A model generated the notes under the pieces. It was not told the origin of the DNA. It searched no databases and saw only the letters and a list, made by a program, of their open reading frames with translations. From the NCBI RefSeq assembly GCF_030286045.1, contig NZ_CP127390.1, positions 1,054,001 to 1,118,000 of the forward strand: 64,000 nucleotides of DNA, read 5' to 3'. The position numbers were made by a program, and so were the translations under genes. Source of the DNA: Propionimicrobium sp. PCR01-08-3 (lineage in GTDB: Bacteria > Actinomycetota > Actinomycetes > Propionibacteriales > Propionibacteriaceae). Positions 41,380 through 60,195 of this stretch are shown here, in pieces. Every line of letters begins with the position of its first letter. Positions within the stretch are counted from its first letter, which is position 1.

Positions 41380-41535
41380 TTTTTTCTTTTGGTAGTTGCG
41401 GGTTGGGTCGATGGTGTGTTCGGCGATGATTTCGCCGGTGGCGCGGTTGATGGTCATGGTGTGGGGGCCGTGTGTGAGGAGGAGGACTCGCGTGTTGGCG
41501 TGGGGTCTGCCGATGGCGAGGTGTCGGAGTTTGGG
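41377..41535 (-). pseudogene. C-terminal remnant of an IS481-family transposase
   Basis: Reads RPKLRHLAIGRPHANTRVLLL, then INRATGEIIAEHTIDPTRNYQKK, the standard IS481 C-terminus (HIGIGRTHAxTRVL ... ATGEILRELTLDPTRDYQ). The catalytic DDE domain is missing: the gene is cut at about 41533 by the left end of the IS3 element. The other part is not seen on the far side. Confidence 0.8.
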
Positions 41536-41601
41536 TCTGATGCAGGAACAGGTGACATTGAACATGGCTAGTCAAGAGCGCTGGCCTGGAAGGATGTCAT
41601 C

Positions 41602-41893: not shown

Positions 41894-41914
41894 GGACGCT
41901 TCTATGCCTCCGTG

Positions 41915-42961: not shown

Positions 42962-43212
42962 GGTGAGTTCCTCCAGTCGTCAGCACATCAGCGGACTGGC
43001 CCGGGTCGCTCAGAGTCACATCTGTAATGAGTCACGCCCCTGGGGACGGACAGGCTTCTGATCAAGGCATCTGCGCGGAGAGACCGAGCCGTAGCTCAGC
43101 CGAGGACACGTCCTTTTGAAGACATCGCGAACTATTCACGAGTCGGTTCTACCCGGAGTCACTCGGCCGAGCTACGGCTCAGCATCCCAGCCGGCCGCGG
43201 GCCCGCCAGAGG
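42962..43212 (-). ncRNA. Candidate bridge-RNA region of the IS110 element
   Basis: Non-coding end upstream of the transposase. Arms 43086-43104 and 43162-43180 pair over 12 perfect bp (GAGCCGTAGCTC/GAGCTACGGCTC) plus 6 more after one mismatch, enclosing a 57-nt region. In the IS110 group the bridge RNA is made from this end. Exact guide loops were not assigned. Confidence 0.5.
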
Positions 43213-44121: not shown

Positions 44122-44153
44122 CCAGAACTGTCACCTGTTCCTGCATCAGACCC

Positions 44154-45273: not shown

Positions 45274-45373
45274 ATGCATCGACGGGCGCGCCACCTAGAA
45301 GTGCGTGTAATCGGTGATTCGGCTCGCTCCAAGCTGTCCGACCGGATTGTCCGACTGCGGGGCCCGGTCTGCT

Positions 45374-45694
45374 CTATGCGCGAGATGTGAGCACGAGTTT
45401 GCGGTTGCCGAAGGTGGCGGTGACTTCGACGGTGCCGCCGAGGGCTTCGACGTAGGCCTTCAGGGTGGCCAGGCCGGAGCAGTCGAGGTCGCCGGCCTCG
45501 ACCGCGGAGATGGTCGGTTGCGTGAGCGACATCCGGTCGGCGAGTTCCTTCTGGGTCACGCCCTGTTCCTCGCGAATCTCGCGGAGTCGGTAGGCGCGCT
45601 CCTCGGCCTCCATCCGGGCGACATGGTCGGCGACGACGGCATCGTCGACGGGGCGCTTGGCGCGTACGTCGTTCCAGGGAACGGTCTTGCTCAT
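45374..45694 (-). CDS. XRE-family antitoxin, apparently without toxin
   Basis: 106 residues from ATG 45694 with GAGGAGG upstream. The HTH is at about 38-70 (LREIREEQGVTQKELADRMSLTQPTISAVEAG) and the tail resembles HigA/RelB-type antitoxins (LKAYVEALGGTVEVTATFGNRKLVL). The upstream gene that should encode a toxin is reduced to a frame ending RFDDRFDEWLDSEED at 45698-45770, with no start, so the toxin looks lost or truncated. Confidence 0.8.
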   Translation of the reverse strand: MSKTVPWNDVRAKRPVDDAVVADHVARMEAEERAYRLREIREEQGVTQKELADRMSLTQPTISAVEAGDLDCSGLATLKAYVEALGGTVEVTATFGNRKLVLTSRA

Positions 45695-45894
45695 CTCAGT
45701 CCTCCTCGCTGTCGAGCCACTCGTCGAATCGGTCATCGAAGCGGAGACAGGAGGCGCTCTGAGGTCGTGGCAGTCATACCTCGACAATTGGGATGGAGAC
45801 ACGCGGCCACAATCCTCGGTGGCGCGCGTCCTCAATGCTCTGGCCACGCTCACCGCAAGAGGACGAGATGGGTGTTCCCATCGAGGTGAACGCG

Positions 45895-46590
45895 CTAACG
45901 ATTGAACACGGTGAGGATCACGCCGATCATCGTTGCGATAAGGGCGGCCGTTGCAACGCCGACCGTCCACCAGAAAGCCTTGCCCGCGCCATTGTTGCCC
46001 GACTCGATCCGCTGATCGACGCCTTCGATCTTGTCGTTGAGCAGCCGCAGGTTGGCGTCCATGGACTCCGGGACGGCTAGTGTCTTCTCGGCCCTCTCGT
46101 CCTCCATGTCGAGGCGAGCCGCACGAGCCTTCGCGGCCTCGCGCATCGACTCCTCGATCTGAGCGGTGTTCTCACGCATCGTCCGCATCATCTCGATCTG
46201 CGGGTTGGCCACCGGTCCCAGGTCCGCCGGGGCCATCGCTGCTGTGGGGAAGTCTATCTTGGGTACGAGCTGGTCGGAGACCCGGGACGTATCGGTGATC
46301 GCGCTGATCTGCTTGATCAGCGGCTCGTGAAACGTCGTCTGGGCGAGGATCGTTGAACGGAGCGATTCCATGGCGGGCCGCAGCTTCTCCGCCAGCTCCT
46401 TGTTCTGCTGGAGCGCCTCCTCGTGGTGAGGGTGCTCCTCGTCGTCGATCGCCGTCTGCAACTCCCTTAGGGTCGGCCTCCAGCTGATGTCGTCCTGGTC
46501 TTCGACATGCTCGACCGCGAACGCCGAGTCCTCCTCAGGAGCGACGTCTTCGTACTCATCATCTCGGCGGGGGTCGTCGTGATCGTTCAT
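45895..46590 (-). CDS. Coiled-coil protein with C-terminal membrane anchor
   Basis: 231 residues from ATG 46590 with AGGGGAC upstream. Acidic N-terminus (DDPRRDDEYEDVAPEEDS), a helical, coiled-coil centre (about 50-190), then one membrane segment at the very end (about 207-229, FWWTVGVATAALIATMIGVIL). This is a tail-anchored layout. It lies 58 bp after the HEPN-like gene in the same orientation, so the two are probably one operon. No family recognised. Confidence 0.65.
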   Translation of the reverse strand: MNDHDDPRRDDEYEDVAPEEDSAFAVEHVEDQDDISWRPTLRELQTAIDDEEHPHHEEALQQNKELAEKLRPAMESLRSTILAQTTFHEPLIKQISAITDTSRVSDQLVPKIDFPTAAMAPADLGPVANPQIEMMRTMRENTAQIEESMREAAKARAARLDMEDERAEKTLAVPESMDANLRLLNDKIEGVDQRIESGNNGAGKAFWWTVGVATAALIATMIGVILTVFNR

Positions 46591-46648
46591 GTGTTGTCCC
46601 CTTGTGGATCGGTCTCGGTGGCCTTGTGGACGTGGGGTTTGGGAACCC

Positions 46649-47455
46649 TCAGATATGCCTCGCGCCATCCAGTCGGCGGTGCACCATTGAGACGACGTTG
46701 ATGACCTCCAGTAGTTCGTCCTCGGTGATGGTCCGGTTGAGTCTTGGGTCGTGGGCCACCGGGTTCCTGAACATGCCGTTCAGTCCCTTCACGAGGTTCA
46801 CCAGTCCGGTCTGCTCATCGCGCTCCGTCTGGGTTGCCAGAGAGTTGATCGCCAGCAGCGGCGCGCCGCTCTGGCCGAGGGCGAGCGTAGCATCCACCAG
46901 ATTCGCTCCATCGCCGCGCAGCCCGGTCATCGACCGCAGGCGGTCAAAGATGCTCTTCGTGGCCTCCAGGCAGGCGTGGAAGTGGGCCTCCTTCAGGACC
47001 TCGACCGAGCAGTAGCGCAGGACCTCCTCATGGGCACGTCGACGGCGCAGCTCGTCCCGCACCGACGTCGCGATGCGGGTGGCTTCATCGAGCGTGGCCG
47101 CCCTCGGCCCTTTGGCCACTCTCCCTTCGCGGTTCACGTGTAGGCCGACGAACGCGAGTCGCTCGTTGAGCCGGTCCTGGCGAAGTGTGAACAGCTCGGG
47201 CCGGTCGCGGTACCGCACGGGCTCCATCGCGTGAACGATGAACGTGATGATGCGCTTGGGATCGCCCTTGTCCGTGTTGTGACGGGCGATGAACGCCTCA
47301 GCGAGCCGATCGCGCTTCGAGGCGTGTGGTAGCGGGTCATCCATACAGAGCGTTTGCAGCAGGACCCCGATCTCCTTGCCGGTGAGCCCATCGTCTGTGT
47401 CGGCTAGCACCGCCGCGATCGCCTCGTACGTGGCACGGCTCCAACTCGTCGTCAT
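46649..47455 (-). CDS. HEPN/TIGR02391-like protein, putative RNase effector
   Basis: 268 residues from ATG 47455, with GAAGGGGA upstream. The C-terminal half (about 145-260) is all-helical with VLKEAHFHACLEATKSIF and MFRNPVAHDPRL. The latter holds the HEPN RNase motif R-x4-H (Arg230, His235) with Asn after Arg. This matches the TIGR02391 group often seen in defence loci. The N-terminal half has a helical domain (DDGLTGKEIGVLL). Located between IS elements and AbiE. RNase activity is inference. Confidence 0.75.
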   Translation of the reverse strand: MTTSWSRATYEAIAAVLADTDDGLTGKEIGVLLQTLCMDDPLPHASKRDRLAEAFIARHNTDKGDPKRIITFIVHAMEPVRYRDRPELFTLRQDRLNERLAFVGLHVNREGRVAKGPRAATLDEATRIATSVRDELRRRRAHEEVLRYCSVEVLKEAHFHACLEATKSIFDRLRSMTGLRGDGANLVDATLALGQSGAPLLAINSLATQTERDEQTGLVNLVKGLNGMFRNPVAHDPRLNRTITEDELLEVINVVSMVHRRLDGARHI

Positions 47456-47696
47456 TGTGTGTTCCCCTTCTCGCATTCGTCCTCAGCCCCGAAGGTATCT
47501 GGGGTCACCGACAACTGCCGTGGGCTGGATAGCATGAACGAGAGCAGTCCAGGCCAGCACCCTGGCCTCCCGTGGCGGATGGGTACGTATGGCTCCTGTG
47601 GACGGCTACCTTGTGAGACCCCCTCGGCGCAACCGATGGGACTCCCGGCCTTCTTTGCAAGCGCGTGCCGCACCCGTCAGACAGGGCGAAATGCCT

Positions 47697-47730
47697 GGCA
47701 ATAGTATCATGCTTTCGTTATACTATTGCC
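47697..47730. promoter_or_regulatory. 11-bp inverted-repeat operator of the abiE operon
   Basis: GGCAATAGTAT (47697-47707) and ATACTATTGCC (47720-47730) are a perfect inverted repeat with a 12-bp spacer, ending on the base before the abiEi ATG. AbiEi proteins are known to repress their own operon by binding inverted repeats. Confidence 0.75.
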
Positions 47731-48297
47731 ATGGTGAGACTCTTGGCGCGCGATGAGCTGTGGGAGACCGCGTCCGCGCAGTACGGTTTCGTGACGGCTC
47801 AGCAAGCAGCCGAAGTGGGGGTCAGCAAGCAGGCTCTTCAGATGTTGGTGCATCGGGGCACGTTGGTGCGGGCTGCGCATGGGGTCTACCGCTTTCCGCA
47901 GTATCCGGTTGGTGAGTTTGATCAGTTCATGTTGGCGGTGCTCTGGACGCGGGTGCCCGAGGCCGTGTTGTCGCACGAGACGGCGCTCGACGCGTACGGC
48001 ATCAGCGACGTCAACCCGAACCGCATCCATGTCACTGTCGGCAAGGATCGCCGGTTCCGTCGGGAGAGTGGGGAGGACTACGTCGTCCACTATCAGGACC
48101 TCACTCCCCAGCAGGTCGGGTGGTGGCAGGAGATCCCGACGGTGACCCCGGTGACGGCGATTGAGCAGTGCCTCGTTTATGGGACGCCGACCTATCTGCT
48201 TCGGCAGGCGATCGAACGCGGGTATGCCCAGGGCTATCTAAAGACAGCTGAGCGCGATGCGTTGGCGGAAGCGCTGGAGGTGCGCTATGACCGATGA
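47731..48297 (+). CDS. abiEi: AbiEi antitoxin
   Basis: 188 residues from ATG 47731. N-terminal winged helix (about 1-55): ASAQYGFVTAQQAAEVGVSKQALQMLVHRGTLVRAAHGVYRF (in part VSKQALQMLVHRGTL). The following domain, with LSHETALDAYGISD and the RFRRESGEDYVVHY stretch, is typical of AbiEi. It blocks AbiEii and represses transcription. The toxin gene overlaps its 3' end by 11 bp. AbiE is a type IV toxin-antitoxin system that stops phage spread by abortive infection. Confidence 0.92.
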   Translation: MVRLLARDELWETASAQYGFVTAQQAAEVGVSKQALQMLVHRGTLVRAAHGVYRFPQYPVGEFDQFMLAVLWTRVPEAVLSHETALDAYGISDVNPNRIHVTVGKDRRFRRESGEDYVVHYQDLTPQQVGWWQEIPTVTPVTAIEQCLVYGTPTYLLRQAIERGYAQGYLKTAERDALAEALEVRYDR

Positions 48298-49240
48298 CTA
48301 TGTTGGCTCCAAGCTGGCCGCGTTGCTGAGGACGTTGAGGCCTAAGGCGAAGGAACCGGTCTCGGCCAAGGTTCTCAACACCTGGATCGCTCAAGCAGAG
48401 GGCCAACTTGGCGATGAGGCCAAGGGTGGGCGCCTTGGCTGGTTGATCGCTTCATCGGTTGCTGTCGGCGCGGTCCAGCGTGCGCTCGACGAGGATGGGC
48501 GCCAGCTGTTCCTGCTCAAAGGCGGCACTCTGCTTCAGCACCGGCTCAACGCGACCGCCCGCACTACCAAGGATGTCGATGGTCTGGTCCGCGGTGACAT
48601 GGATGCGTTCTTCGCGGTGCTCGAAGAGGTGCTTGATGAGCCGTGGGGGCCGCTGACGCTGCGCCGCGGTGAAGTCGAGGTGATCGATGTCCCGACGAAG
48701 CTCGTCAAGCCACGCAGGTTTGACATTATCCTCAATCTGCGAGGCGTGACGTGGCGGCGTATCCAGTTCGAGGTCTCGCCCGACGAGGCCGGTATTGGAC
48801 GGGAGCGAGAGCTTATCGAGCCGCCTCCGTTGGCAGGCTTCGGGTTGCCTGATCCTGACGCGCTGGTGGGGATCGCGATGCGGTTCCAGATCGCGCAGAA
48901 GCTCCACGCGGTCTCCGACCCGCACGAGCCACCGGGATCGATCAACGACCGTGCACGCGATGTCGTCGATCTGCTCCTGCTCCGCGACCTCGTCGCTACG
49001 ACCGGAGCGCCGACGCTGGCAGAGGTCCGAGAGGCGGCTGTCGCCGTCTTCGAGGCCAGGGCCGCCGAGGCCGCCAAGCTCGGGCGACCGACAAGGAACT
49101 GGCCGCCAACCCTTATCGCACACGCTCACTGGAAGGACGACTATATCCGAGCGGCCGCCTCCGGCGGCGTCGAGTTGTCCCTCGAGGACGCGGTTGGCGA
49201 AGCGAATGCCTGGATCAGGGTGCTCGACGGCGGCCAGTAG
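48287..49240 (+). CDS. abiEii: AbiEii nucleotidyltransferase toxin
   Basis: 317 residues from ATG 48287 with GGAGG upstream. The NTase core is seen in FLLKGGTLLQHRL (KGGT 78-81) and TTKDVDGLV (Asp96, Asp98); a C-terminal helical part has DRARDVVDLLLLRDL. AbiEii-type toxins transfer nucleotides (for related MenT toxins, to tRNA) and halt growth. Full length and no damage, so the module looks functional. Confidence 0.92.
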   Translation: MTDDYVGSKLAALLRTLRPKAKEPVSAKVLNTWIAQAEGQLGDEAKGGRLGWLIASSVAVGAVQRALDEDGRQLFLLKGGTLLQHRLNATARTTKDVDGLVRGDMDAFFAVLEEVLDEPWGPLTLRRGEVEVIDVPTKLVKPRRFDIILNLRGVTWRRIQFEVSPDEAGIGRERELIEPPPLAGFGLPDPDALVGIAMRFQIAQKLHAVSDPHEPPGSINDRARDVVDLLLLRDLVATTGAPTLAEVREAAVAVFEARAAEAAKLGRPTRNWPPTLIAHAHWKDDYIRAAASGGVELSLEDAVGEANAWIRVLDGGQ

Positions 49241-49255
49241 CGAGGTTGGTTCCTT

Positions 49256-49927
49256 CTACTCCGCTGCGGACGAGGGTCGCTTGCGCATGGTGACTCCGCC
49301 GCCGGAGGCGATCCTGGCGATCGTGGCTCGGTGGACTCCGAAGCGTTCCGCGATCTGCTTCACGGGCATCCCGGACGCGTAGGCGTCGAGGAGCTTCTGA
49401 CGTTGCGGGTAGCTCAAACGAGTTTGAGATTTGAGTGCTTGGGTTGCGACTGGGCCGCGCTGATCGCGTCGGGAAGGTCGTTCGGGGCGAGTGGTGGGGG
49501 AGTAGGTCTTGCGTTGACTACGGGTGATGAGTGCTCTGAGTGGGGCGGAGGGGTTTGAGAGGCTTCTACGGAGGACCACGAAGCTCGAGAGAAGAGAAAG
49601 CTTGCTTTCTCTTCCGAGGGCAAGGCAGAGGTTGAGCCGCGAAGCGGCGAATACCTCCACAACGACGAAGGCTGAGAGGAGAATGAACTTGTTCATTCTT
49701 CCGAGACCAAGGAAGTTGTTTTCCGCGCGAAGCGCGGAGACACCTGAGGGGGAAGTGTCGAACTCTATGTTCACCACTTCCCCCGTTTCGTTTGCCTCCG
49801 AGAGGTCGGCGAAGTCGATGTCAGGCCCGCCGTCGAAGAACCACGAGACGATCGTCCTGCTGGCCGGGCCGACAAAGATCTTTGATGAAGTAGTCGAAGA
49901 GCGGTCCCGCGTCGCGCGCGTATCCAT
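49256..49927 (-). CDS. Chimeric ORF: recombinase-like HTH with in-frame repeat elements
   Basis: 223 residues from ATG 49927. The last ~55 residues are a resolvase-type HTH (RLSYPQRQKLLDAYASGMPVKQIAERFGVHRATIARI; key part VKQIAERFGVHRATIARI). The first ~60 (IFVGPASRTIVSWFFDGGPDIDF) are unrecognised. The middle (about 60-118) is translated repeat copies 2 and 3, which stay open in this frame. The frame is also open upstream to about 50029 without a start. Probably a decayed or fused island gene; expression uncertain. Confidence 0.5.
   Translation of the reverse strand: MDTRATRDRSSTTSSKIFVGPASRTIVSWFFDGGPDIDFADLSEANETGEVVNIEFDTSPSGVSALRAENNFLGLGRMNKFILLSAFVVVEVFAASRLNLCLALGRESKLSLLSSFVVLRRSLSNPSAPLRALITRSQRKTYSPTTRPERPSRRDQRGPVATQALKSQTRLSYPQRQKLLDAYASGMPVKQIAERFGVHRATIARIASGGGVTMRKRPSSAAE
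49576..49659. repeat. Structured repeat element, copy 2
   Basis: About 90% identical to copy 1 at the tmRNA end, starting at the same CCACGAAG. Stem 1 GAAGAGAAAG (49591-49600), CTTG loop, then 49605-49614; the wobble of copy 1 is a full A-T pair here. CAAGG at 49621 is again 20 nt after the loop. Stem 2 GCCGC-GAA-GCGGC within GAGGT/ACCTC. Confidence 0.75.
49667..49750. repeat. Structured repeat element, diverged copy 3
   Basis: Stem 1 GGAGAATGAA (49678-49687), CTTG loop, pairing with 49692-49701; four of ten base pairs differ from copy 1 on both strands. CAAGG at 49708 is again 20 nt after the loop. Stem 2 is CCGCGC-GAA-GCGCGG (49723-49737). The outer GAGGT/ACCTC pairing is not kept. Confidence 0.7.
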
Positions 49928-50016
49928 CTTCGCTTCGGCAAACCTTTTGTAGAAGGTGCCGATCGACGCCTCGTATTCCCCCAGCTGGGCCTGTTTCCCT
50001 GTCGTAGACTGGTTGC

Positions 50017-50271
50017 ATGTCGATGACTATGGCTCAGGTTGAAGAGGCGTTTATGGCCTTGGATCGCCGCGAACAAGCGGCGATCCTTCAGCGCGGCATT
50101 CGCAACCTGGACGAACGCTCTGAAGACTTACCGCAGGCCGAGGTCGAGGCCGCATGGCGCGACGAGCTGAGCAGGCGCGTTGACGACATTGGAAGCGGTG
50201 CGGTCGAGCTTCTGGATTTCGATGAGTCCCACCGGCAGATTCGTGCGGAACTGATCGCACGCCGCAAGTGA
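50017..50271 (+). CDS. Addiction-module antitoxin, RelB/ParD-like
   Basis: 84 residues; ATG 50017, with in-frame ATGs at 50023 and 50029 as options. MAQVEEAFMALDRREQAAILQRGIRNLDE and the tail EAAWRDELSRRVDDIGSGAVELLDFDESHRQIRAEL (in part AWRDELSRRVDDIGSG) match the small 'addiction module component' (TIGR02574) group. Its stop overlaps the toxin GTG by 4 nt. It should neutralise the ParE-like product. Confidence 0.88.
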   Translation: MSMTMAQVEEAFMALDRREQAAILQRGIRNLDERSEDLPQAEVEAAWRDELSRRVDDIGSGAVELLDFDESHRQIRAELIARRK

Positions 50272-50579
50272 GACTCCGCAAACGTGAGCATCCCGAAGCT
50301 CACGAAGAACTCCTTGATGCCGCCAGCTGGTATGACGATGAACAGCTAGGACTTGGCGAGGACTTCCTTGATGCCATTGAGGACTCTGTTGCCCAACTTC
50401 TTGACTGGCCAAACATTGCTCGTGTCTACCCTGGATGGAATCGGGAACCGGTTGTTCATCAAAGAACGATGAAGACGTTTCCCTACCAGATCCTCTATTT
50501 TATCGAGGACTCATATCTGGTGGTTGTTGCCTACGCTCACAACCGCCGCAAGCCTGGTTACTGGAAAGACAGAATCTGA
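50268..50579 (+). CDS. ParE/RelE-like toxin
   Basis: 103 residues from GTG 50268. The fold pattern is clear: HPEAHEELLDAASWYDDEQLGLGEDFLDAIEDSV (in part AASWYDDEQLGLGEDFLDAI), then MKTFPYQILYFIEDSYLVVVAYAHNRRKPGYW. The last strand with AHNRRKPGYW is the classic ParE/RelE end. Such toxins act on gyrase (ParE) or ribosome-bound mRNA (RelE); the target cannot be told from sequence. Confidence 0.9.
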   Translation: MRLRKREHPEAHEELLDAASWYDDEQLGLGEDFLDAIEDSVAQLLDWPNIARVYPGWNREPVVHQRTMKTFPYQILYFIEDSYLVVVAYAHNRRKPGYWKDRI

Positions 50580-50855
50580 CCAAGGTCCTGGGCGGGTTTC
50601 CCACCGAGGCTTGTGCTGCCCAGTCCCCGAGTGCGCCTTGGAGTGCACCGAGGGCGGCCTCAATGAGGGGCCATCATGAGCAACAGGTCGTCCATCGCAC
50701 GGAGTTCGACTTTTCTTGTCTTGGCGCGGGTATGGTCTCGCGAGACTTTCCAGTTCTTCGCGTGGATCAGTGCTGCCGGGCGATTCTCTGACGTGGAAGA
50801 CTGCGATCGGACGATCTACATGTGCGTCCGTGCAGATGTTGAAGCGGAGGAATCA

Positions 50856-52271
50856 ATGAGCCAGCCACCCCAGGAAACTGGTGAATATCCGCAAGAATCG
50901 GCGGCTCATCACCCCGGCCCGGATTTCGAGGCTGCCAGATCTGGTTTGCAAGGGGACGAACACGAGCCGGCAGCTCCGGTGGCGGGAATCGCAAGGCGTG
51001 ATCAGCGACCAAGGTCAACCGCCTCCGTCGGACACCCATCAATTGGCGGCCGGGACCATGCAACGGGGGCAGCAAGGCGATTCTCCAAGCGCCTGCTTGT
51101 AGTAATCATCGCCGGGGTCCTTGTTCTGGCATTGGGCATCATCATGGTGCCAAGACTGATCGATCGTCTTGATACGAACAGATGGCATCCCACCGGGCCT
51201 GAGGTCGCCTGGCTCGATGAGGGCTATGCCGCTGGCTTCACACAGTTCGTCCTGCCCAACGGCGTGAAGGCGGTCGCCGCATCTGCGGACCACCGCATCG
51301 TTGTGGGCACGAAGCCGTTCGAGGATGGGGCCACCGGTTTCGATGTCGCGACCGGCGAACAGACCTGGCATCTGGATTACGTATCGTGTGAATCGATCCA
51401 TCCATCCAGGGAAGGTTTCATCTACTGCGTCGGATACACCGGGGGAGCCCGCGACGTCGATCTGTTGAAGATAGATATCTCGACCGGAGAACAAGAATCC
51501 CTCTTCTCAATCTCCGATGCTCCTTATGTCGGTGCGCTCACCTCACGCGGCGAATTTAAGGGCGCCGAGATCCTCACGTGGCAAGAGAGCAACAGCTTGG
51601 TCATTGCCGCGGTGGACGGCGGCAGTGCGACCTGGCAAATCTCGCTGACGACGTGGGAGGGCATTCCGGCGTGCTATTTGCTGGGCTCCCACATCGCCTG
51701 CGATTCGCGCGAGGCCTTCACTGTGCTGGACGCGTCGGACGGGCATGCCTCGGTCAACTCCACGCCGCTCGATGAATCGCAGCGAGTCGTCTGGGCGAGC
51801 GACGGATACGCCGTCGAGCCGTGGCCGCACAGCTACGGTGAATCCAACACGGCCACGCTCTATGACTTCGATGGCGCAGCGCTTGGGCAGTGGAACAATC
51901 TCAGAATCTCGTCTCCCAGTTGGTATGACGCGTTCTTCTACCCGTTGGACGAATTGCAACGCGATCAGATGCCCCTTCTGGTGGACGCCAAAGGCGACCC
52001 GGTGGTCACCGATGGATCCGAATACGGCAAGGTGAGTTTCTCCCAGTCCGGCGTTGAAGCGGAGGCCTACACCATTACCGCCGGTTCTGCCGGCGGTTCG
52101 GTCGTTCTGATAACAACCACGCCGACCACGCAGACTTTGTACTCGGGCAATGGAGACCAGCTGTGGCCCATCGACGGAAACCCGGCCTTCACCACCACCG
52201 TCGATGGGCTCATCGTCGTCGAGGGAGAGGATCTGGCCGCGCCTGACACAATCTTGGTGCCCGTGGGGTAA
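50856..52271 (+). CDS. Membrane-anchored extracellular propeller-like protein
   Basis: 471 residues from ATG 50856 with GGAGG at 50846-50850. A polar, Pro-rich cytoplasmic N-terminus (about 85 residues) precedes one membrane segment (LLVVIIAGVLVLALGIIMV). The outer part has several repeated blades with FDVATGEQTWHL and LYSGNGDQLWPIDG, resembling PQQ/WD-type propellers. Four Cys may form disulfides. Role unknown. It is followed by the ABC/ACP cassette but with a 135-bp gap holding a small hairpin. Confidence 0.72.
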   Translation: MSQPPQETGEYPQESAAHHPGPDFEAARSGLQGDEHEPAAPVAGIARRDQRPRSTASVGHPSIGGRDHATGAARRFSKRLLVVIIAGVLVLALGIIMVPRLIDRLDTNRWHPTGPEVAWLDEGYAAGFTQFVLPNGVKAVAASADHRIVVGTKPFEDGATGFDVATGEQTWHLDYVSCESIHPSREGFIYCVGYTGGARDVDLLKIDISTGEQESLFSISDAPYVGALTSRGEFKGAEILTWQESNSLVIAAVDGGSATWQISLTTWEGIPACYLLGSHIACDSREAFTVLDASDGHASVNSTPLDESQRVVWASDGYAVEPWPHSYGESNTATLYDFDGAALGQWNNLRISSPSWYDAFFYPLDELQRDQMPLLVDAKGDPVVTDGSEYGKVSFSQSGVEAEAYTITAGSAGGSVVLITTTPTTQTLYSGNGDQLWPIDGNPAFTTTVDGLIVVEGEDLAAPDTILVPVG

Positions 52272-52406
52272 CGGGTCTTGCCGCGTACCGCGTGAGGCTT
52301 TGCCTCAGACGCTCCGTGGCACGTGGAGCGGCCTGCAGGGAGCGGGAGAGGACACGCCCTGGAGGAAGCCTTCATCACACGGACCGAGGATGCGGGGGAA
52401 TAGCAG

Positions 52407-52823
52407 ATGTGGATCGTGGAATGGATGCGGATTCTGCTGCTGCACCAGTTCGCGGTCTCGCACGGCATCATCGCGGTCGCGGGCTTCATCATGAATGTGC
52501 TCTATCCCGAGCGCACCGCGGCGCCACTCGGCTGGCCGAGCGGGCCCTTCCAGGTGAAATACGGGTTCGCGCAACTCGGTCTCGGCGTGATGGGCGTCAT
52601 GTCGATCTGGTTCCACGGGAACTTCTGGGTGGGAACCCTCGTCACCCTCTACATCTACGGCATAAGCGGGCTGTGGACGCACACGCAAGAGATCGTTAGG
52701 AAGCGCAAGCAGACCGGCAAGACCGACGGGGTGGGACTGTTCAACATCATTCTCGATGTGATCTACCACCTCGTTCTGACCTGGATGTCACTTCAGATAC
52801 CCGGCGTCTGGTCGTTCGAATGA
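52407..52823 (+). CDS. Small membrane protein, DUF6790-like
   Basis: 138 residues from ATG 52407. Four membrane segments (about 8-30, 48-68, 70-92, 112-132) and conserved-looking HQFAVSHGIIAVAGFIMN and YPERTAAPLGWPSGPFQVKYGFAQLGLG (in part WPSGPFQVKYGFAQLG). It resembles the DUF6790 family (moderate certainty). Its stop overlaps the permease start (ATGATGG), so it belongs to the ABC/ACP/KS cassette, where it may be an exporter subunit or lipid-modifying factor. Confidence 0.7.
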   Translation: MWIVEWMRILLLHQFAVSHGIIAVAGFIMNVLYPERTAAPLGWPSGPFQVKYGFAQLGLGVMGVMSIWFHGNFWVGTLVTLYIYGISGLWTHTQEIVRKRKQTGKTDGVGLFNIILDVIYHLVLTWMSLQIPGVWSFE

Positions 52824-55219
52824 TGGTGAGGCAGATGAATCTCAAGTACGCGCGAAACGACCTCCGCAAGAACAAGGGCGTCAATGCCGCGTTGCTGATC
52901 GTGCTCATCCTGAGCGCCTTCCTGATGGCGACCGGGGCCATGGTGGCAGAACGCATGTTCGGTGCGGTCGATCAGCTCTTCGACCAGGCCGAGCCACCGC
53001 ACTTTCTGCAGATGCACAAGGGCGAGTACGACCAGGCCGCACTGGACGAATTCGCCGATGCGCACCCAGAGATCACCGCATGGCTGATCGAGGACATGGT
53101 CGGATTCGACTCCAGCCAGCTCAGCTGGCAGCGTCCGGCCACCGGGGAATCCGGCGATCTGTCCGAGAGCCTCATCGACAACCTCTTCGTGGTGCAAAAC
53201 GACGAATTCGATTTTCTGCTCGACGAGTCGGGTGGCATCCCCAGGCCCGACGTGGGCGAGGTCTACGTTCCGGTCTCCTATCAGCAGAGCTTCGGGCTCC
53301 AGACAGGTGACGACTTGCAGGTCCGCACCGAGACCGGCGTCCAGAACCTGACGATCCAGGGTTTCGTCCGTGACGCTCAGATGGCGTCGTCGCTGTCGTC
53401 CGCGACCAGATTCGTGGTCTCCGACGCCGACTTCGACACCTTGTCGAACGCGGGAGGCGGAAGTCCGGAGATCATCGTCGAATATCTGTTGTCGGATCCG
53501 GCGCTGGCGTCCGATTTTCAGACCGCCTACGAATCGGACGACGGACTGCCCAAGAACGGTCAGGGCGTTACCTTCGAGATGATCCGGATCATCAATGTGA
53601 TCAGCGACGGGCTGGTCGCGGCGGCGCTCGTCTTCGTGAGCATCCTGCTGATCGCTATCGCACTGCTCAACGTGCGTTTCGTCATCCGGGGCACGCTCGC
53701 CGACGAGGTGCGCGAGATCGGCGCCATGAAGGCGATAGGCCTGCCGAACGCCACGATCTCGGGCCTCTACCTATCGAAATACTCCGTCATGACGCTGGTG
53801 GCCTGCGTCATCGGCGGCATCGGCGCGATCTTCGCGACCGGTGCGCTGACCGCCAAGGTTCAGGTGAACTATGCGAAGGCCCCGCTCGGTGTTGCGAGTT
53901 TCGTGGCACCGATCATCGCGCTGGCCGTGGTCTTCGTCGTGGTCATCGCGATCTGCCGCGGAGTGCTCGGCAGTGTGAAGAGGATTCAGGTGGTCAATGC
54001 TCTGGTGCATGGCAGCCTGCTCAACGACGCTCAGACCGCGCGCTTGGCCAGGCGCCAGGCCCGCAGACTGGGCCGCACCGGCCTCGCGTCGTTCAAAGGC
54101 GGCGACCTGAACCGGCGTTTGGCATTGATGGATCTGCGCGCCGAGTTCAGGCAATGGGTGCTCATTCCGGTGGTCTTTGCGTTGGCGTCGGTGCTGATGA
54201 TCCTGCCGACCAATCTGCTCACCACCTTCCAGAGCCCAAAATTCGTGACCTACATGGGCGCCCCCGAATCCGACCTCCGCGTCGACCTGCAGTTCTTGGG
54301 CGATCTCGACGTGCTCCGCGATGATGTGAGCGCCGCGATGAGCGAGGACGACCGGTTGACCGACATCCGGGTCTTCGCGAATCGACTGGTCGAAACCGAG
54401 GGCGACGAGGGCTGGGAGAGCATGCGCGTCGAGACCGGCGACTACTCCGAAGGCACGGTCGAGTTCATCGAGGGGACGCGTCCCGAGGCCGGCGAGATCG
54501 CATTGTCGGTGCTCAATGCCGACAAGTTCGGCCTGGGCGTCGGCGACCAGATGCCGATCCGGGTCGGTGAGACGACCTCGCAGCTTGCGGTGAGCGGCAT
54601 CTACCAAGACGTCACCAGCGGGGGATACACCGCCAAGATCCAGGGCGAGATCAGCGGCGACGCCGTGGGGTACGTGATTTATGCGGATGTCGCCGACGGT
54701 GGTGGCGCATCGGTGATCGCCGACGAATACGGCAGCGCGTTCCCGCAGGCGAGTGTCGTCGCGATGCGGGCATACGTCGATCAGACCCTGTCATATGTGA
54801 CCGGCGCCTTCTTCAGCGCCGCCGCGATAGCGCTCATCTTCGCGGTGGGTGTCGCGGCGCTGGTCACCGTCCTCTACCTGAATCTGCAACTGGCCCGGGA
54901 TCGGCACCGGATGGGCGTGCTGTCGGCGCTGGGCTTCTCGGGCGCAGAACTGAGCGCCCAGGTGCGGCTCAAGACGCTTGTCAGCGTCGTCGCCGGAACC
55001 GCACTCGGAGTGATCGTCTCTGCGACGCTCGGTGAAGTGGTCGTCGGCGGGGCGCTGTCGGTGGCCGGTATCGGAATCTCGCGGCTGGCCTTCATCGTGA
55101 ACCCACTGCTGGTCTACCTCGGCTATCCGCTGCTGCTCATCGCCGTCGGCTATCTGGGCGCCCGAGGGGTCGCGTCCAGCTTGCGGCGCGGCAACACGAG
55201 TGTCTGGCTCAGGGCATGA
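52820..55219 (+). CDS. MacB/FtsX-type ABC transporter permease
   Basis: 799 residues; ATG 52820 overlaps the preceding stop, ATG 52835 (MNLKYARNDLRKN) follows GGTGAGG and may be the true start. Two FtsX-like halves: a first membrane segment (about 14-36), a large outer domain (40-255), three segments (260-385), then a second set with ends near 760-785. This is the long, two-domain form of MacB-type permeases that move lipids, peptides or antibiotics by a mechanical cycle. The matching ATPase gene overlaps it. Confidence 0.9.
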   Translation: MMVRQMNLKYARNDLRKNKGVNAALLIVLILSAFLMATGAMVAERMFGAVDQLFDQAEPPHFLQMHKGEYDQAALDEFADAHPEITAWLIEDMVGFDSSQLSWQRPATGESGDLSESLIDNLFVVQNDEFDFLLDESGGIPRPDVGEVYVPVSYQQSFGLQTGDDLQVRTETGVQNLTIQGFVRDAQMASSLSSATRFVVSDADFDTLSNAGGGSPEIIVEYLLSDPALASDFQTAYESDDGLPKNGQGVTFEMIRIINVISDGLVAAALVFVSILLIAIALLNVRFVIRGTLADEVREIGAMKAIGLPNATISGLYLSKYSVMTLVACVIGGIGAIFATGALTAKVQVNYAKAPLGVASFVAPIIALAVVFVVVIAICRGVLGSVKRIQVVNALVHGSLLNDAQTARLARRQARRLGRTGLASFKGGDLNRRLALMDLRAEFRQWVLIPVVFALASVLMILPTNLLTTFQSPKFVTYMGAPESDLRVDLQFLGDLDVLRDDVSAAMSEDDRLTDIRVFANRLVETEGDEGWESMRVETGDYSEGTVEFIEGTRPEAGEIALSVLNADKFGLGVGDQMPIRVGETTSQLAVSGIYQDVTSGGYTAKIQGEISGDAVGYVIYADVADGGGASVIADEYGSAFPQASVVAMRAYVDQTLSYVTGAFFSAAAIALIFAVGVAALVTVLYLNLQLARDRHRMGVLSALGFSGAELSAQVRLKTLVSVVAGTALGVIVSATLGEVVVGGALSVAGIGISRLAFIVNPLLVYLGYPLLLIAVGYLGARGVASSLRRGNTSVWLRA

Positions 55220-55254
55220 CGAGCATTCTCAACCCACCAACGAACGGAGAAGAC

Positions 55255-56022
55255 ATGTCGACGGCTTCAGCAGCCCTGGCGGCGGCGGACCTGGAGAAGA
55301 CCTTCTATTCGACCGATCCACCGACGCAGGTGCTCTCACACATCGATCTCGAGGTGGCCACCGGCGAGTTCCTTGCGGTCATGGGAGCGTCCGGATCGGG
55401 CAAGTCGACGCTGCTGTACTGCCTGAGCGGAATGGACAAACCCACCGGCGGAAGTGTCCGGCTCGGTGGTCGCGAGCTGACCGGGCTGAGCGACGGCGAG
55501 ATGAGCCGGGTGCGGCTGACCGAGATGGGATTCATCTTCCAGCAGGCCTACTTCTTGTCGAATCTGAGCGTGCGGGACAACATCCTGCTTCCCGCGCTGA
55601 AGGCCACGCCGAAAGACAAGGCCGGTGCCGGCGCCCGGATCGACGCGATGCTCGAGCGTTTCGGCATCGCCCACGTCGCCGATCACGGCATCACCCAGGT
55701 GTCAGGCGGGCAGCTGCAGCGGGCGTCGATCTGCCGCGCGCTGGCCACCGAACCGAGCGTGCTGTTCGCGGACGAACCGACGGGCGCCCTGAACTCGGCC
55801 ATGACCACCGAGGTGATGGACGCACTGTCCGGCGTCCACACTGAGGGCACGACCATCATGATGGTCACCCATGATCCGGGCTGCGCGGCCCGTGCCGACC
55901 GCGTCGTCTATCTGCGCGACGGCGGGGTCGTCGATGCGCTCGCGATGGGCACCTGGACACCCGGCGAGGCGACCCGGCGTGAGGACGAACTGCTGAGCTG
56001 GCTGCGCGGCCACGGGTTCTAG
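55255..56022 (+). CDS. ABC transporter ATPase, MacB/LolD type
   Basis: 255 residues from ATG 55255 with GGAG at 55246; an ATG at 55216 overlapping the permease stop is an alternative with 13 more residues. Walker A MGASGSGKST, Q-loop IFQQAYFLSN, signature VSGGQLQRASICRA, Walker B VLFADEPTG, and H-loop MVTHD are all intact. It powers the FtsX-type permease before it. Confidence 0.94.
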   Translation: MSTASAALAAADLEKTFYSTDPPTQVLSHIDLEVATGEFLAVMGASGSGKSTLLYCLSGMDKPTGGSVRLGGRELTGLSDGEMSRVRLTEMGFIFQQAYFLSNLSVRDNILLPALKATPKDKAGAGARIDAMLERFGIAHVADHGITQVSGGQLQRASICRALATEPSVLFADEPTGALNSAMTTEVMDALSGVHTEGTTIMMVTHDPGCAARADRVVYLRDGGVVDALAMGTWTPGEATRREDELLSWLRGHGF

Positions 56023-56098
56023 CCGGGCCGGGCCAACCATCGAACCGGCGCCGGACCGCCCTGGTGCTGCGCCGAGTCGGCCCGAACCAACCACCTGT

Positions 56099-56132
56099 GT
56101 ACCGGACGCCGTCAGCCGACGGCATCCGGTGC
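56099..56132 (+). other. Hairpin between the ATPase and ACP genes
   Basis: GCCGTC (56108-56113) pairs with GACGGC (56118-56123) around AGCC, and GTACCGGA (56099-56106) pairs with TCCGGTGC (56125-56132) with one wobble, one mismatch between. No T-run follows. Likely a processing or attenuation point that lets ACP and KS be expressed differently from the transporter. Confidence 0.5.
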
Positions 56133-56170
56133 GGCAAGAAATGACAGATACCGAGAGCAAAGGAAAGACG

Positions 56171-56407
56171 ATGACAGAAGAGCAGTTCAAGGAAGCTATC
56201 GCTGAGTTCGCCGACAAGCCGGCGCACGAGCTGACGATGACCGAGGCGATCGACGCCGTCGGCATCGACTCGATAAGCATGTTCGAGTTCCTCATGAAAC
56301 TGGAGGACATCATCGGAGAGCACGACGTTGACGTCACTCCCCAGATCGTCACGTTGCAGGATCTCTACGACGCCGTGGCAGATGGCGCCGACAGCAACGC
56401 AGCCTGA
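56171..56407 (+). CDS. Stand-alone acyl carrier protein
   Basis: 78 residues from ATG 56171 with AGGAAAG upstream; ATG 56141 is an option. The attachment Ser34 lies in VGIDSISMFEFLMKLED, a GxDS site with Ile after Ser in place of the usual Leu. Different from the housekeeping acpP at 17.2 kb. It should be loaded by the PPTase two genes later and used by the adjoining ketosynthase. Confidence 0.88.
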   Translation: MTEEQFKEAIAEFADKPAHELTMTEAIDAVGIDSISMFEFLMKLEDIIGEHDVDVTPQIVTLQDLYDAVADGADSNAA

Positions 56408-56427
56408 GCCGGCACTGATACCTGATC

Positions 56428-57663
56428 ATGGAACGTGCGGTCATCACAGGGATGGGCGTGGTCAGCCCGATCGGCAACTCCCTGAGCGAATTCGAGACGA
56501 ATCTGTTCGCCGGGCACCACGGCATCGTGCCCATCGACCATTTCGATGCAAGTGACATGGGGGTCAAGGTGTATGCGCCGGTGCGCGACCTCGGCGCGTC
56601 CCGGACGATCCCCGAAAACGAGTTGCGCCGGCTTGACCCGTATTGCGTCTTCGGGCTGCTCGCCGCACGCCAGGCAGTGGGCCAAGCGGGACTTCGAGGC
56701 CACGTCGATCCCTACCGGCTCGGGGTCTTCATGTCCAGTGGTCTCGGCGGCACCGAGACGCTGCTCGGCGAGGTCGAGACGATGCGGCAACGTGGGCCAC
56801 GGCGGGTATCGCCCCTGTTGTTGCCGAAGTGGATACCGAACATGATCGCGGGAATCGTGTCCATCGATATGGGCGCCCACGGAGCGTCCATATCGCACAA
56901 CGCCGCCTGCGCGTCGAGTGCGGTGAGCATCGGGGAGGGCCTGCGGCTGATCCGGCACGGCTACGCCGACGCCGTGATCTGCGGCGGCGCCGAGGCCATC
57001 GCGCAAAAGGTCGTGATGGCCGGCTTCCAGAACATGCGGGCGCTGAGCACGGCCGGCGATCCGGATCGGGCCAGCATCCCCTTCGACCGCGAGCGCAAAG
57101 GCTTCGTCCTGGGGGAGGGAGGCGCGGCCATCGTCCTGGAGAGCGCCTCGCATGCCGGCGCCCGGGGCGCGCGCAGCTTTGGCGAGATCACCGGCTACGG
57201 CGTCACCAGTGATGCCTCGCACATCACGGCACCGGCCGCCGACGGCGAGGCGATCGTCAGATCCATCGAGTTCGCGCTCCGAGAAGCGAACGCGCTGCGT
57301 CCTGAGAGCGGAGACGAACCTATCTACGTCAACGCCCACGGCACCGGCACGGTGCTGAACGACCGAACCGAAGCCACCGCGATCTCCCGCACGCTCGGTG
57401 ACCGCGCGCTGGTGTCGTCGACCAAATCGATGACCGGCCATCTGCTCGGCGGGGCAGGAGCTGTCGAGGTCATCGCCTCGGTGATGGCTATCCGGAAAGG
57501 CCTGGTGCCGCCGACGGTGGGTACGGCGCAGATCGATGACGACATCGATATCGACATTGTGACCGGCGCCGCACGCCGTGCGCCGTTCAGCCGCACGCTG
57601 TCGCTGTCTTTGGGATTCGGCGGGCACAACGTCGGCCTGGTGATCGATGCGCCCGAAGACTGA
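56428..57663 (+). CDS. Beta-ketoacyl-ACP synthase of the accessory cassette
   Basis: 411 residues from ATG 56428. KAS I/II type with Cys161 (NAACASSAVSIG), a His in NAHGTGTVLNDRTE and a His in KSMTGHLLGGAG, so the condensing triad is intact. It is clearly different from fabF at 16 kb. It lies 20 bp after the ACP gene. No ketoreductase, dehydratase, enoyl reductase or acyltransferase is present in the cassette, so it would have to borrow these or make a short ketoacyl product. Confidence 0.93.
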   Translation: MERAVITGMGVVSPIGNSLSEFETNLFAGHHGIVPIDHFDASDMGVKVYAPVRDLGASRTIPENELRRLDPYCVFGLLAARQAVGQAGLRGHVDPYRLGVFMSSGLGGTETLLGEVETMRQRGPRRVSPLLLPKWIPNMIAGIVSIDMGAHGASISHNAACASSAVSIGEGLRLIRHGYADAVICGGAEAIAQKVVMAGFQNMRALSTAGDPDRASIPFDRERKGFVLGEGGAAIVLESASHAGARGARSFGEITGYGVTSDASHITAPAADGEAIVRSIEFALREANALRPESGDEPIYVNAHGTGTVLNDRTEATAISRTLGDRALVSSTKSMTGHLLGGAGAVEVIASVMAIRKGLVPPTVGTAQIDDDIDIDIVTGAARRAPFSRTLSLSLGFGGHNVGLVIDAPED

Positions 57664-58486
57664 GGAGTCCCAGGCGCCAGGCACGATGGGGGACGCTCGC
57701 GATTCCGCTTGGCTACCCGAGTTGGACGTGCTGATCGCACGGGCGGCCCTGATCGATGAGACAGGCTTTCGCCGCATCCGGGCGGGTCTTCCTGCTGAGC
57801 GACGCGAGCGCTGCGATGCCTATCATCATGCTCGCGATCGCTATGCGAGCGCGGTTTGCTTTGCCTTGCTCCAATTTCTGTGGCGCGAACGCCGGGCGGA
57901 ACCGATGCCGCCGCTCGAGCGTGGCTCACACGGGAAGCCGCGATATCCACCTCGGTACGGGATGGAGTTCAACTGGTCGCACGATGCCGCGGCCTGCGTG
58001 TGCGCCATCGGCGCTTCTCCGGTGGGCATCGACGTGCAATCCAGGGTGCCGTTCGATGCAGGCCTGTTCGAGCGAATCGCCACGGCGACCGAACGGCCAT
58101 TGCGCAATCGCTTTGCTCAGGCGGACGACCTCAGCCTGCTGTGGAGCAGGAAAGAAGCCCTGATCAAGCGCACCGGCCTCGGTATGAGCGCATCGCTGAC
58201 GGGCGTCGACACCATCGGCGAGTCATCGCTGGTGAGCTTCAGCAGCGATGAGGTCGCCGCGGTATTCAGCGCGAGCATCGACGGCATGTCGCAGAGCGGC
58301 TTCTGCCATCGGGCACGGGTCCGGATCGCAGAACTGCGTCCGGACGACACGTCACCGGCCGCCGACGACCTAGCGGTCGCACCGGCGAGTGACCTGGCGG
58401 CCACACCGGCCGATGATCCGTCTACATCGGCGGCGTGGCGGGCACGGCCGCTTGCTGTGACGATCTGCTCGATGCCCGCCGGCTGA
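57647..58486 (+). CDS. Sfp-type 4'-phosphopantetheinyl transferase
   Basis: 279 residues from ATG 57647, overlapping the ketosynthase by 17 bp; ATG 57686 is an option. Motifs: FNWSHD (108-113), GIDVQ (Asp129) and WSRKEALIK (Trp166, Glu170, Lys174), which bind CoA and magnesium. The length and early motif place it in the Sfp/HetI group, which activates specialised carrier proteins. The C-terminal 50 residues are Ala/Asp/Pro-rich repeats. It should activate the ACP of this cassette. Confidence 0.9.
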   Translation: MRPKTEESQAPGTMGDARDSAWLPELDVLIARAALIDETGFRRIRAGLPAERRERCDAYHHARDRYASAVCFALLQFLWRERRAEPMPPLERGSHGKPRYPPRYGMEFNWSHDAAACVCAIGASPVGIDVQSRVPFDAGLFERIATATERPLRNRFAQADDLSLLWSRKEALIKRTGLGMSASLTGVDTIGESSLVSFSSDEVAAVFSASIDGMSQSGFCHRARVRIAELRPDDTSPAADDLAVAPASDLAATPADDPSTSAAWRARPLAVTICSMPAG

Positions 58487-58488
58487 CC

Positions 58489-59439
58489 TCAGACCATCGG
58501 ACGCTCCCAGCCACCCTTGGTGTCGACGCCCGTCTCGGCCGCCAACTGTTCCATCTGCGCGACCTCCTCGCCCGACAGCTGCAAGGCGGCCACGCGCGCC
58601 TGAGAATCAACATGCGCGGGCTTGGTGACCCCGATCAGCGGCTTGGTCTGCTTGGCGAGCGCCCAGGCCGTCGCCACCTCGGCGATGGACGCGCCGCCGT
58701 GTGCCTCGCCGATCTTCGTCAAACCGGCGTTCAGTTTCGCCAACTTGGGAAGCGACTTGTTGTAGGTGGCGGCGCGATCGCTACCGGCGGGCAGCGGATT
58801 GTCCGGCCCGTACTTGCCGGTCAGGGCACCTTGTTCGAGCACCATGTAGGCGTAGAAGTCGAGGCCGTTCCGGGTGCAGTAGTTCACAATCCCGGCATCC
58901 TCGGACGACCGGTAGAGCAGACTGAAGTGATTCTGGATCGCCGACAATTCGACTCCGCCTGCGGCGAGGATCTCGGTGGCCCGTTTGATCTGAGCGAGAT
59001 TGTGGTTCGAAACACCGACCGACCTGACCTTGCCCGACTTGACCAGCCCGATCAGCTGCGGCGTCCATTTCTCGACGTCTTGGGGATTGTGAATCCAGTA
59101 GACGTCGACATAGTCGGCGTGCAATCGCTTCAGGCTCGCATCGAGCATCAGCTCCATCGCGTTGTCCTCGGAGCCGGCCAACCCGGGAGTGAACTTGGTC
59201 GACAGGAAATAGCTCTGCCGGTCATAAGGGGCAAGGAGATTGCCCAGAATCGTCTCGGAGGTGCCCTGCCCATATACCGGCGCGGTATCCCACAGATTGA
59301 GTCCCTTGTCCATCGCCCGCTCGACCACCGGTTTCAGGTCGTCCTCGGTGAGGTGGTTGCCGAAGACCCGGTCGCCGCCGACCGCTCCGGATCCCCAGGA
59401 CCAGGTGCCGAGCGCGATTGCAGGAAATGATGTGTTCAT
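58489..59439 (-). CDS. Aldo/keto reductase
   Basis: 316 residues from ATG 59439. The TIM-barrel tetrad is seen as Asp51, Tyr56 (NLWDTAPVYGQGTSE), Lys82 (LSTKF) and His117 (YWIHNP). The NADPH site follows in KSGKVRSVGVSNH and later GVTKPAH. It is convergent with the PPTase gene (2 bp apart) and thus on a separate transcript. Substrate unknown; a link to the neighbouring acyl cassette as ketoreductase is possible but unsupported. Confidence 0.93.
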   Translation of the reverse strand: MNTSFPAIALGTWSWGSGAVGGDRVFGNHLTEDDLKPVVERAMDKGLNLWDTAPVYGQGTSETILGNLLAPYDRQSYFLSTKFTPGLAGSEDNAMELMLDASLKRLHADYVDVYWIHNPQDVEKWTPQLIGLVKSGKVRSVGVSNHNLAQIKRATEILAAGGVELSAIQNHFSLLYRSSEDAGIVNYCTRNGLDFYAYMVLEQGALTGKYGPDNPLPAGSDRAATYNKSLPKLAKLNAGLTKIGEAHGGASIAEVATAWALAKQTKPLIGVTKPAHVDSQARVAALQLSGEEVAQMEQLAAETGVDTKGGWERPMV

Positions 59440-59631
59440 CGTCGTGACCCTTTGCTAGCTCGTCGTTTCTTCGTGCATGGCATGGTGTGATGCATTGCAG
59501 GCTGTGGCCATCTTCTGCCAACCGTCACCTTCGACGGTAACGGTGGCAGGTTGCCGTTGCAGGGCTATCGGATAGTTGAGGATCGAAAGTTCTGGCAGAA
59601 GCTTGCCCGGTGATGGGACAATCGAATCGTG

Positions 59632-60195
59632 ATGTCTGTCGAACCGCCTGCTGCCGGAGAGCTCTTGGTCTCGACTTCAGGGCGCGGTGCGGACTTCTTC
59701 GATCAGTCGGTCGTGTTGCTGTTGGATTGCGACCAGGACGGTGCCTTGGGCGTCACGCTGAATAAGCTTTCGACGACTTCGCTGGATTCCGTGCTGCCGC
59801 AGTGGACGCAGCTGGTCGCGCCGCCGCGCGTCCTGTTTGCCGGGGGGCCGGTGTCGCCGCAGGGCGCGGTTTGCGTGGCAAAGCTGAGCAATCCGAGTGA
59901 GGAGCCGCCCGGTTGGCGGCCGGTGATGCGCGATGTCGGTCTGCTCCATCTCGACACGCCGGTCGAACTCGCCACGGGTGGCTACACCGATCTGCGTATC
60001 TTTGCGGGCTATTCGGGTTGGGCGCCCGGCCAGTTGGACGATGAGTTGGCGCGCGGGTCTTGGTTCAGGATGGACAGTCGCGACGAAGACATCTTCACTG
60101 CGCAGCCGGCCGGTTTGTGGCGGCGGGTGCTGCGGCGGCACGGGGGCGCCCCGGCCCTGCTGTCAACCTGGCCGGCGGATCCCGAACTGAACTGA
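59632..60195 (+). CDS. YqgE/AlgH family protein (DUF179)
   Basis: 187 residues from ATG 59632, with an in-frame GTG directly before it. AGELLVSTSGRGADFFDQSVVLLLDCDQDGALGVTLNK (in part SVVLLLDCDQDGALGVTLN) and YSGWAPGQLDDEL are diagnostic of this family, whose function is unresolved despite wide conservation. It lies about 200 bp upstream of mtrA in the same orientation. Confidence 0.92.
   Translation: MSVEPPAAGELLVSTSGRGADFFDQSVVLLLDCDQDGALGVTLNKLSTTSLDSVLPQWTQLVAPPRVLFAGGPVSPQGAVCVAKLSNPSEEPPGWRPVMRDVGLLHLDTPVELATGGYTDLRIFAGYSGWAPGQLDDELARGSWFRMDSRDEDIFTAQPAGLWRRVLRRHGGAPALLSTWPADPELN

Follow-up and report, generated by a model that had tools for sequence, protein, structure and literature searches.

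Organization of the six-gene block

The DNA analysed here, hereafter the window, is a stretch of 64,000 nucleotides of Propionimicrobium sp. PCR01-08-3 (contig NZ_CP127390.1, positions 1,054,001–1,118,000), whose 3.29 Mb genome is assembled in two contigs. Between positions 52407 and 58486 it holds a block of six + strand genes, referred to below as the cassette, and coordinates, overlaps and Pfam matches bear out the tight rightward order described by an initial annotation. The genes encode a DUF6790 membrane protein (52407–52823; PF20589, 72.1 bits), a 799-aa ABC permease with two FtsX domains (52820–55219; FtsX, 51.3 bits in two stretches), the partner ATPase of this permease (55216–56022, with a possible start at 55255; ABC_tran, 110.7 bits), a stand-alone acyl carrier protein (ACP; 56129–56407, with a likely start at 56171), a FabF-like ketosynthase (KS; 56428–57663; ketoacyl synthase N 163.2 bits, C 102.9 bits) and a phosphopantetheinyl transferase, apparently of the Sfp kind (PPTase; 57647–58486), whose C-terminal tail differs from that of its relatives. 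All six open reading frames (ORFs) are open, and the curated Pfam cut-offs are exceeded for DUF6790, FtsX, ABC_tran, PP-binding, ketoacyl synthase N and C, and ACPS. Genes 1 and 2 overlap by 4 nt, as do genes 2 and 3, the KS and PPTase frames overlap by 17 nt, and 20 nt separate ACP from KS; this order and these overlaps fit a single operon, with a gap of 106 nt between the ATPase gene and the ACP ORF. We denote the window's genome as G000 and the compared genomes, mostly of the family Propionibacteriaceae, by other G numbers.

The ketosynthase

The cassette KS scores 469.7 bits against TIGR03150 (cut-off 493.75) and 462.7 bits against PRK07314 (cut-off 387). In an alignment of four cassette KSs, its catalytic residues Cys161, His304 and His338 do not vary. 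The intact KSs of other cassette genomes are 58–76% identical to it, the closest (76%) being that of G002, a member of the same genus. In the KS tree, the six intact cassette KSs group in a single clade (support 100/100), apart from housekeeping FabF, and the window KS pairs with the G002 KS (support 94/97). The cassette KS is thus distinguished from FabF both by clade and by locus, as housekeeping FabF is encoded at 15906–17165 within a fabF-acpP-fabH-fabD locus on the − strand (15906–19509, with fabD read from the sequence). This locus is the presumed source of the acyl- and malonyl-ACP chemistry. The fabD frame also matches the acyltransferase part of a megasynthase in G019 (30.8%), a protein described below.

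G000 contains three KSs related to the cassette KS at E ≤ 0.001, namely itself, housekeeping FabF and one lone copy. The lone FabF-like KS (G000:C1:2618884–2620092; L009:6852–8099) has no ACP visible beside it, and its neighbours, both named by eye, are a TetR-type regulator and an NmrA-like gene. KS homologues of 44–47% identity in genus g16 and in G667 were first taken as possible cassettes and were rejected on their neighbourhoods: ACP, FtsX, ATPase and PPTase matches were absent within ~1.5 kb in all 11 loci fetched from the genomes with such KSs. The surroundings of the homologue in G173 resemble an ordinary fatty acid synthase (FAS) locus, and in G182 an ATPase-like match (36.6%) lies ~4 kb from the KS homologue.

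Carrier protein and PPTase

The PP-binding match of the ACP is weak (24.6 bits against a cut-off of 20.8), and its DS motif (DSI) is present. The intact Ser34, numbered from an internal ATG, and the intact Cys-His-His residues of the KS noted in the initial annotation are both upheld. Two PF00550 matches in G000 exceed the cut-off, the housekeeping ACP and the cassette ACP; a third falls far below it and has an internal stop. Likewise, PF01648 finds two PPTases, that of the cassette and one elsewhere. With two carriers above the cut-off and two PPTases genome-wide, there is almost no other likely client for the cassette enzyme, which agrees with the earlier view that it looks dedicated.

The cassette PPTase has an ACPS domain, as an Sfp-type enzyme should (38.9 bits against a cut-off of 25), and its NCBIfam matches are all below cut-off. 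The RKEA motif is present. The motif at the conserved Asp reads GIDVQ in the window and GVDIS, GVDIA or GVDIQ in relatives. Taking D-x-E and KEA as the metal-binding motifs of Sfp, as we presume them to be, the cassette PPTase keeps the Asp and not the Glu.

The exporter pair and the DUF6790 protein

The permease is 57–60% identical to those of three cassette relatives, and its profile weakly matches YtrF (E = 0.00017) and a second transporter in the PDB (E = 0.0054). A low-confidence structure model (pLDDT 56.5) suggests two extracytoplasmic domains. The ATPase, though LolD/MacB-like, scores far under the MacB and LolD cut-offs (189.7 bits against 966 for NCBIfam MacB). An FtsX permease with its ATPase is present, as had been proposed, but the label MacB-type is loose, since the two-FtsX permease is a chain of its own.

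The DUF6790 match covers positions 30–152 of the 158 in the profile. About 24 N-terminal residues that are present in five cassette relatives are missing in the window, and in a structure model of a relative's DUF6790 protein this stretch corresponds to the first predicted helix. A fold search of the PDB returned no match (best E = 1.1), and no paper naming the family was found in the open-access literature. Ten other DUF6790 loci share no partner gene, as judged by eye in short neighbourhoods where gene calling is poor.

The block ends a hybrid NRPS–PKS cluster in relatives

The initial annotation viewed the cassette as a minimal, self-standing pathway with no tailoring enzymes. This is not supported by three relatives, G019, G043 and G576, in which the six-gene block forms the end of one conserved hybrid cluster of the nonribosomal peptide synthetase–polyketide synthase (NRPS–PKS) type. 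Upstream of the block, all three have in the same order a megasynthase (5429, 5308 and 5255 aa, respectively), a KS lacking an acyltransferase (AT), a carrier protein, a class-III aminotransferase, a membrane protein, a thioesterase (TE) and a major facilitator superfamily (MFS) transporter. Domains of the megasynthases were located with seeds cut from the G019 protein. Their common order is C-A-T-KS-AT-T-C-A-T-KS-T-C-A (C, condensation; A, adenylation; T, thiolation), and each protein has an N-terminal condensation domain. A final T is found in G019 and G043, and a partial C-terminal C in G043 and G576 by seeds and in G019 by PF00668. Compared with G019 over the longest aligned pieces, the aminotransferases of G043 and G576 are 74–75% identical and their megasynthases 54–55%. 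The G019 aminotransferase matches PF00202 with 180.7 bits. The TE is a stand-alone protein (in G043, PF00975, 108.9 bits), probably of type II. The cluster membrane protein has 6–7 hydrophobic stretches in the two cases tested and is without a Pfam match in G019. In G576, the carrier protein is in one frame with the KS. The MFS and TE genes also directly precede the block in G579, where this upstream stretch is cut by the contig end.

The window retains the six-gene order of the cluster end. It has no counterpart of the megasynthase, AT-less KS, carrier protein, aminotransferase, TE or MFS gene, only KS and AT cross-matches, and a PF00668 search of G000 as a whole gave nothing at E ≤ 1e-10. 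The window copy corresponds to the cluster arrangement without its megasynthase, aminotransferase, TE and MFS genes. No paper on the cluster or the block was found in the open-access literature, a search that did not extend to MIBiG or antiSMASH comparison. An NRPS on contig C11 of G002 was rejected as a relative of the megasynthase: it contains the sole condensation-domain match of that genome and belongs to a different small system, 25–32% identical.

Several other genomes hold partial forms. In G186, the first condensation domain (44.9% identical) shares a reading frame with the latter half of the membrane protein gene and is followed by TE-MFS-DUF6790-FtsX-ATPase, with no KS, ACP or PPTase match. 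The fusion of an NRPS condensation domain with half of a membrane protein gene is seen at L143:3780–5378, where the rest of a megasynthase is apparently deleted. G148 has part of DUF6790, the permease and the ATPase; beyond these, its KS is fragmented over several frames and its PPTase gene contains a stop. G575 keeps MFS-FtsX-ATPase. G026 combines the MFS gene with the six genes; the preceding 20 kb gave neither a megasynthase nor an aminotransferase match, and the 18 kb surrounding the block gave no TE match. Both G026 and G186 have a sensor kinase gene upstream, accompanied in G026 by a response regulator gene. These forms resemble snapshots of a decaying cluster whose exporter persists longer than its synthase.

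Distribution of the cassette and of its exporter

A KS-alignment search at E ≤ 1e-100 of the family set of 198 genomes yielded matches in 41. ACP, KS and PPTase of the cassette kind occur in at least seven (G000, G002, G019, G026, G043, G576 and G579). Seven is a minimum, as loci were available for 30 of the 42 KS matches; of the other 12, all at or below 342.6 bits, one was seen separately and 11 lay outside the neighbourhood check. Five genomes besides the window's have the identical six-gene order, among them G026, in which the KS is divided between two frames. G002 has four of the genes in the order ATPase-ACP-KS-PPTase, without permease and DUF6790 and with the PPTase in two frames. The block is therefore conserved beyond this strain, the prediction on which the initial annotation had staked its claim. 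Since both G002 and G026 are draft genomes, the former with 6% contamination, their split frames may be sequencing errors. The co-occurrence of the block genes exceeds chance. Across the class, KS matches at E ≤ 1e-110 occur in 23 of 394 genomes including the window's, with no cassette within ~1.5 kb in the 19 further loci fetched (three places were unfetched).

The permease is more widely distributed and is found in 35 of 197 family genomes (E ≤ 1e-30). It scores above 800 bits in 21 of them and occurs in two pieces in G558, while the remainder score below 480 bits. Of the 22 genomes with close matches, six carry the cassette. We examined 22 of the 35 permease neighbourhoods; in 16 further ones among these no intact cassette was seen, the contigs of G577 and G614 ending too early to judge. 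Of 394 genomes of the class, 5 have the permease: the window's and four others, around whose permease genes ACP, KS, PPTase and DUF6790 matches are absent. Across the phylum, it is present in 7 of 396, the six others being distant (31–34% identity in the five compared). The permease tree does not set cassette proteins apart from exporter-only ones. Because the permease recurs without the cassette, the exporter seems useful without the synthase, and efflux or self-protection is the simplest inference for its role there. At L084:7934–12244, in another actinobacterial family, a cassette-less exporter pair adjoins a Peripla_BP_2 lipoprotein gene; a siderophore link would be a guess.

Genomic position and selection

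The cassette lies in a strain-variable region (41157–59629) bordered on the left by ssrA, the transfer-messenger RNA gene (40791–41157, + strand), and on the right by a gene we take to be YqgE-like (59629–60195, + strand; G003 counterpart 83.5% identical). These borders follow from synteny with G003, of the same genus, which has the same order of an SmpB-like gene (so named by presumption), ssrA, the YqgE-like gene, a response regulator gene and kinase genes. The ssrA–yqgE interval is 18.5 kb in the window, and in G003 it is 6.5 kb of other genes with no cassette. Besides the cassette, the variable region contains an IS110 transposase gene, an rve-type gene that is presumably IS3-like, and AbiEi/AbiEii and ParE-type toxin–antitoxin genes. 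The G002 copy lies elsewhere, and the window's flanking genes are unmatched around it, although only 3.5 kb precede it on its contig. An attachment-site repeat of ssrA was not found, the longest match being 12 bp, which we take as chance. A candidate MFS remnant before DUF6790 was discarded: the upstream peptide aligned with MFS C-termini no better than shuffles did (best p of seven, 0.042).

As a separate observation, an aldo-keto reductase gene adjoins the cassette or the exporter in five genomes, at 58489–59439 in the window and at L037:7345–8427, L047:11265–12107, L087:1130–1987 and L146:2339–3181. The reductases of L037, L047 and L087 are only 28–32% identical to the window's.

Selection was estimated on the window branch from the split with G002 by simple counting over three sequences with 500 bootstraps, as the ratio (ω) of nonsynonymous to synonymous divergence. 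ω is 0.19 (0.11–0.33) for the KS, 0.20 (0.09–0.43) for the ATPase and 0.42 (0.15–1.21) for the ACP, for which the interval spans 1. The divergence between the window and G002 is deep, with a synonymous divergence (dS) of ~0.7 for KS and ATPase. The values of 0.19 and 0.20 indicate that KS and ATPase were under purifying selection for much of the branch.

Origin and role of the window copy

We conclude that the block is probably the orphaned 3′ end of a hybrid NRPS–PKS cluster whose megasynthase is not found in this genome. Within a complete cluster, the PPTase would activate carrier domains, and the many carrier domains of an NRPS–PKS cluster provide a natural reason for a PPTase in the tail. 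ACP and FabF-like KS could draw on primary-metabolism reductases and dehydratase to produce a dedicated acyl-ACP, whose acyl group would probably pass as a starter to the N-terminal condensation domain. The TE would clear misprimed carriers, and the FtsX/ATPase pair together with the MFS protein may carry the product out of the cell and probably confer protection on the producer. Alternatively, KS and ACP might feed the aminotransferase a β-ketoacyl group, a role not separable here from that of starter supply. Of these parts, the exporter is the likeliest to have kept a use in the present strain, in efflux or self-protection; ACP, KS and PPTase are intact here, without their known client. We infer loss of the other genes, and not gain, as the direction of change.

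Several observations weigh against an orphaned cluster end. No TE or MFS match lies beside the window copy, and because no remnant of either has been shown, a deletion scar is unproven and gain of the tail alone is possible. The G002 block sits at a different locus and has neither permease nor DUF6790. Purifying selection on KS and ATPase, and a window KS branch that does not exceed the G019 branch in length, are more readily explained by a cassette still in use than by simple decay. As the D-x-E motif is not matched, it is uncertain from the sequence whether the PPTase is active. The starter role of KS and ACP is itself putative.

One rival reading is a working stand-alone system, domesticated after megasynthase loss, in which the PPTase primes the ACP, KS and housekeeping FAS build a special acyl chain on it and the FtsX/ATPase pair moves the acyl product to the envelope or out of the cell. 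Intact ORFs and KS residues and the low ω of KS and ATPase are in its favour, as is G002, which keeps ATPase-ACP-KS-PPTase and whose condensation-domain match belongs to another system. But G002 lacks the permease, has a split PPTase and is a contaminated draft, the ACP interval reaches beyond 1, DUF6790 is truncated, and the block contains neither an acyltransferase nor an acceptor. Moreover, the selection may reflect use before the megasynthase was lost, as the loss is not dated to before the lineage split. We consider such a system unlikely, and it is similarly doubtful that a domesticated tail, retained by selection, makes a simple envelope or secreted lipid. The surroundings of the cassette could instead point to an acquired fragment within a genomic island, unexpressed and functionless in itself, given the transposase, rve-type and toxin–antitoxin genes of the variable ssrA–yqgE region and the lack of any sigma70-like promoter in 52000–58700 (none against a chance expectation of 0.6, the test being weak for this organism). 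Six open ORFs, deep divergence from G002, purifying selection on KS and ATPase and the missing attachment-site repeat speak against this, and we regard it as improbable. A deliberate ACP-KS-PPTase-exporter pathway unrelated to NRPS–PKS clusters, as originally proposed, would accord with the failure to find a megasynthase in this genome, but the identical gene order at the end of the cluster in three genomes and the single clade of six intact cassette KSs make it highly improbable. The initial interpretation as a whole is thus partly supported, and what appeared to be a new minimal pathway now points to the family's hybrid NRPS–PKS cluster. An orphaned cluster end raises the question of whether leftover KS, ACP and PPTase can keep a job of their own.

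Comparison with known systems

The exporter pair resembles MacB, LolCDE, YtrF and, as we presume, HrtBA in combining an FtsX-domain permease with a LolD/MacB-like ATPase. It differs from MacB-type exporters in having two FtsX domains in one chain and the ATPase in a separate one, with a score below the NCBIfam MacB cut-off and no MacA/TolC-like gene in the block.

Rhizobial NodF and NodE are a dedicated ACP and a FabF-like KS that use the housekeeping FAS and are encoded beside the ABC exporter NodIJ. The block shares with them the dedicated ACP, the FabF-like KS and the adjoining ABC exporter, and the cassette KS aligns over 88% of its length, at 36.7% identity, with a protein annotated HsnB, which we take to be NodE. 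Unlike the Nod system, the block has no NodABC-like genes, uses another type of exporter and includes a PPTase.

In the biosynthesis of the calcium-dependent antibiotic (CDA), FabF3 and FabH4 are reported to make hexanoyl-ACP with primary FAS enzymes, and the cystargamide cluster contains homologues of fabF3/fabH4 (ctmA/ctmC) and an ACP gene, ctmD (PMC9136287). For CDA and A54145, delivery of an ACP-bound acyl group to a starter condensation domain is reported (PMC7804268). The likeness lies in a discrete FabF-like KS that draws on primary FAS and, for cystargamide, also in a discrete ACP beside the NRPS. The block differs in lacking a FabH-type KS and an acyl oxidase or epoxidase and in including an exporter and a PPTase. 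Furthermore, the megasynthase of the relatives is a hybrid with KS modules; in G000, neither this protein nor an NRPS with a starter condensation domain was found, and the FabF-like KS and the ACP of a CDA-type starter module are both present. By analogy, the acyl-starter enzymes of CDA and cystargamide would be the closest precedent for the KS–ACP pair of the cassette.

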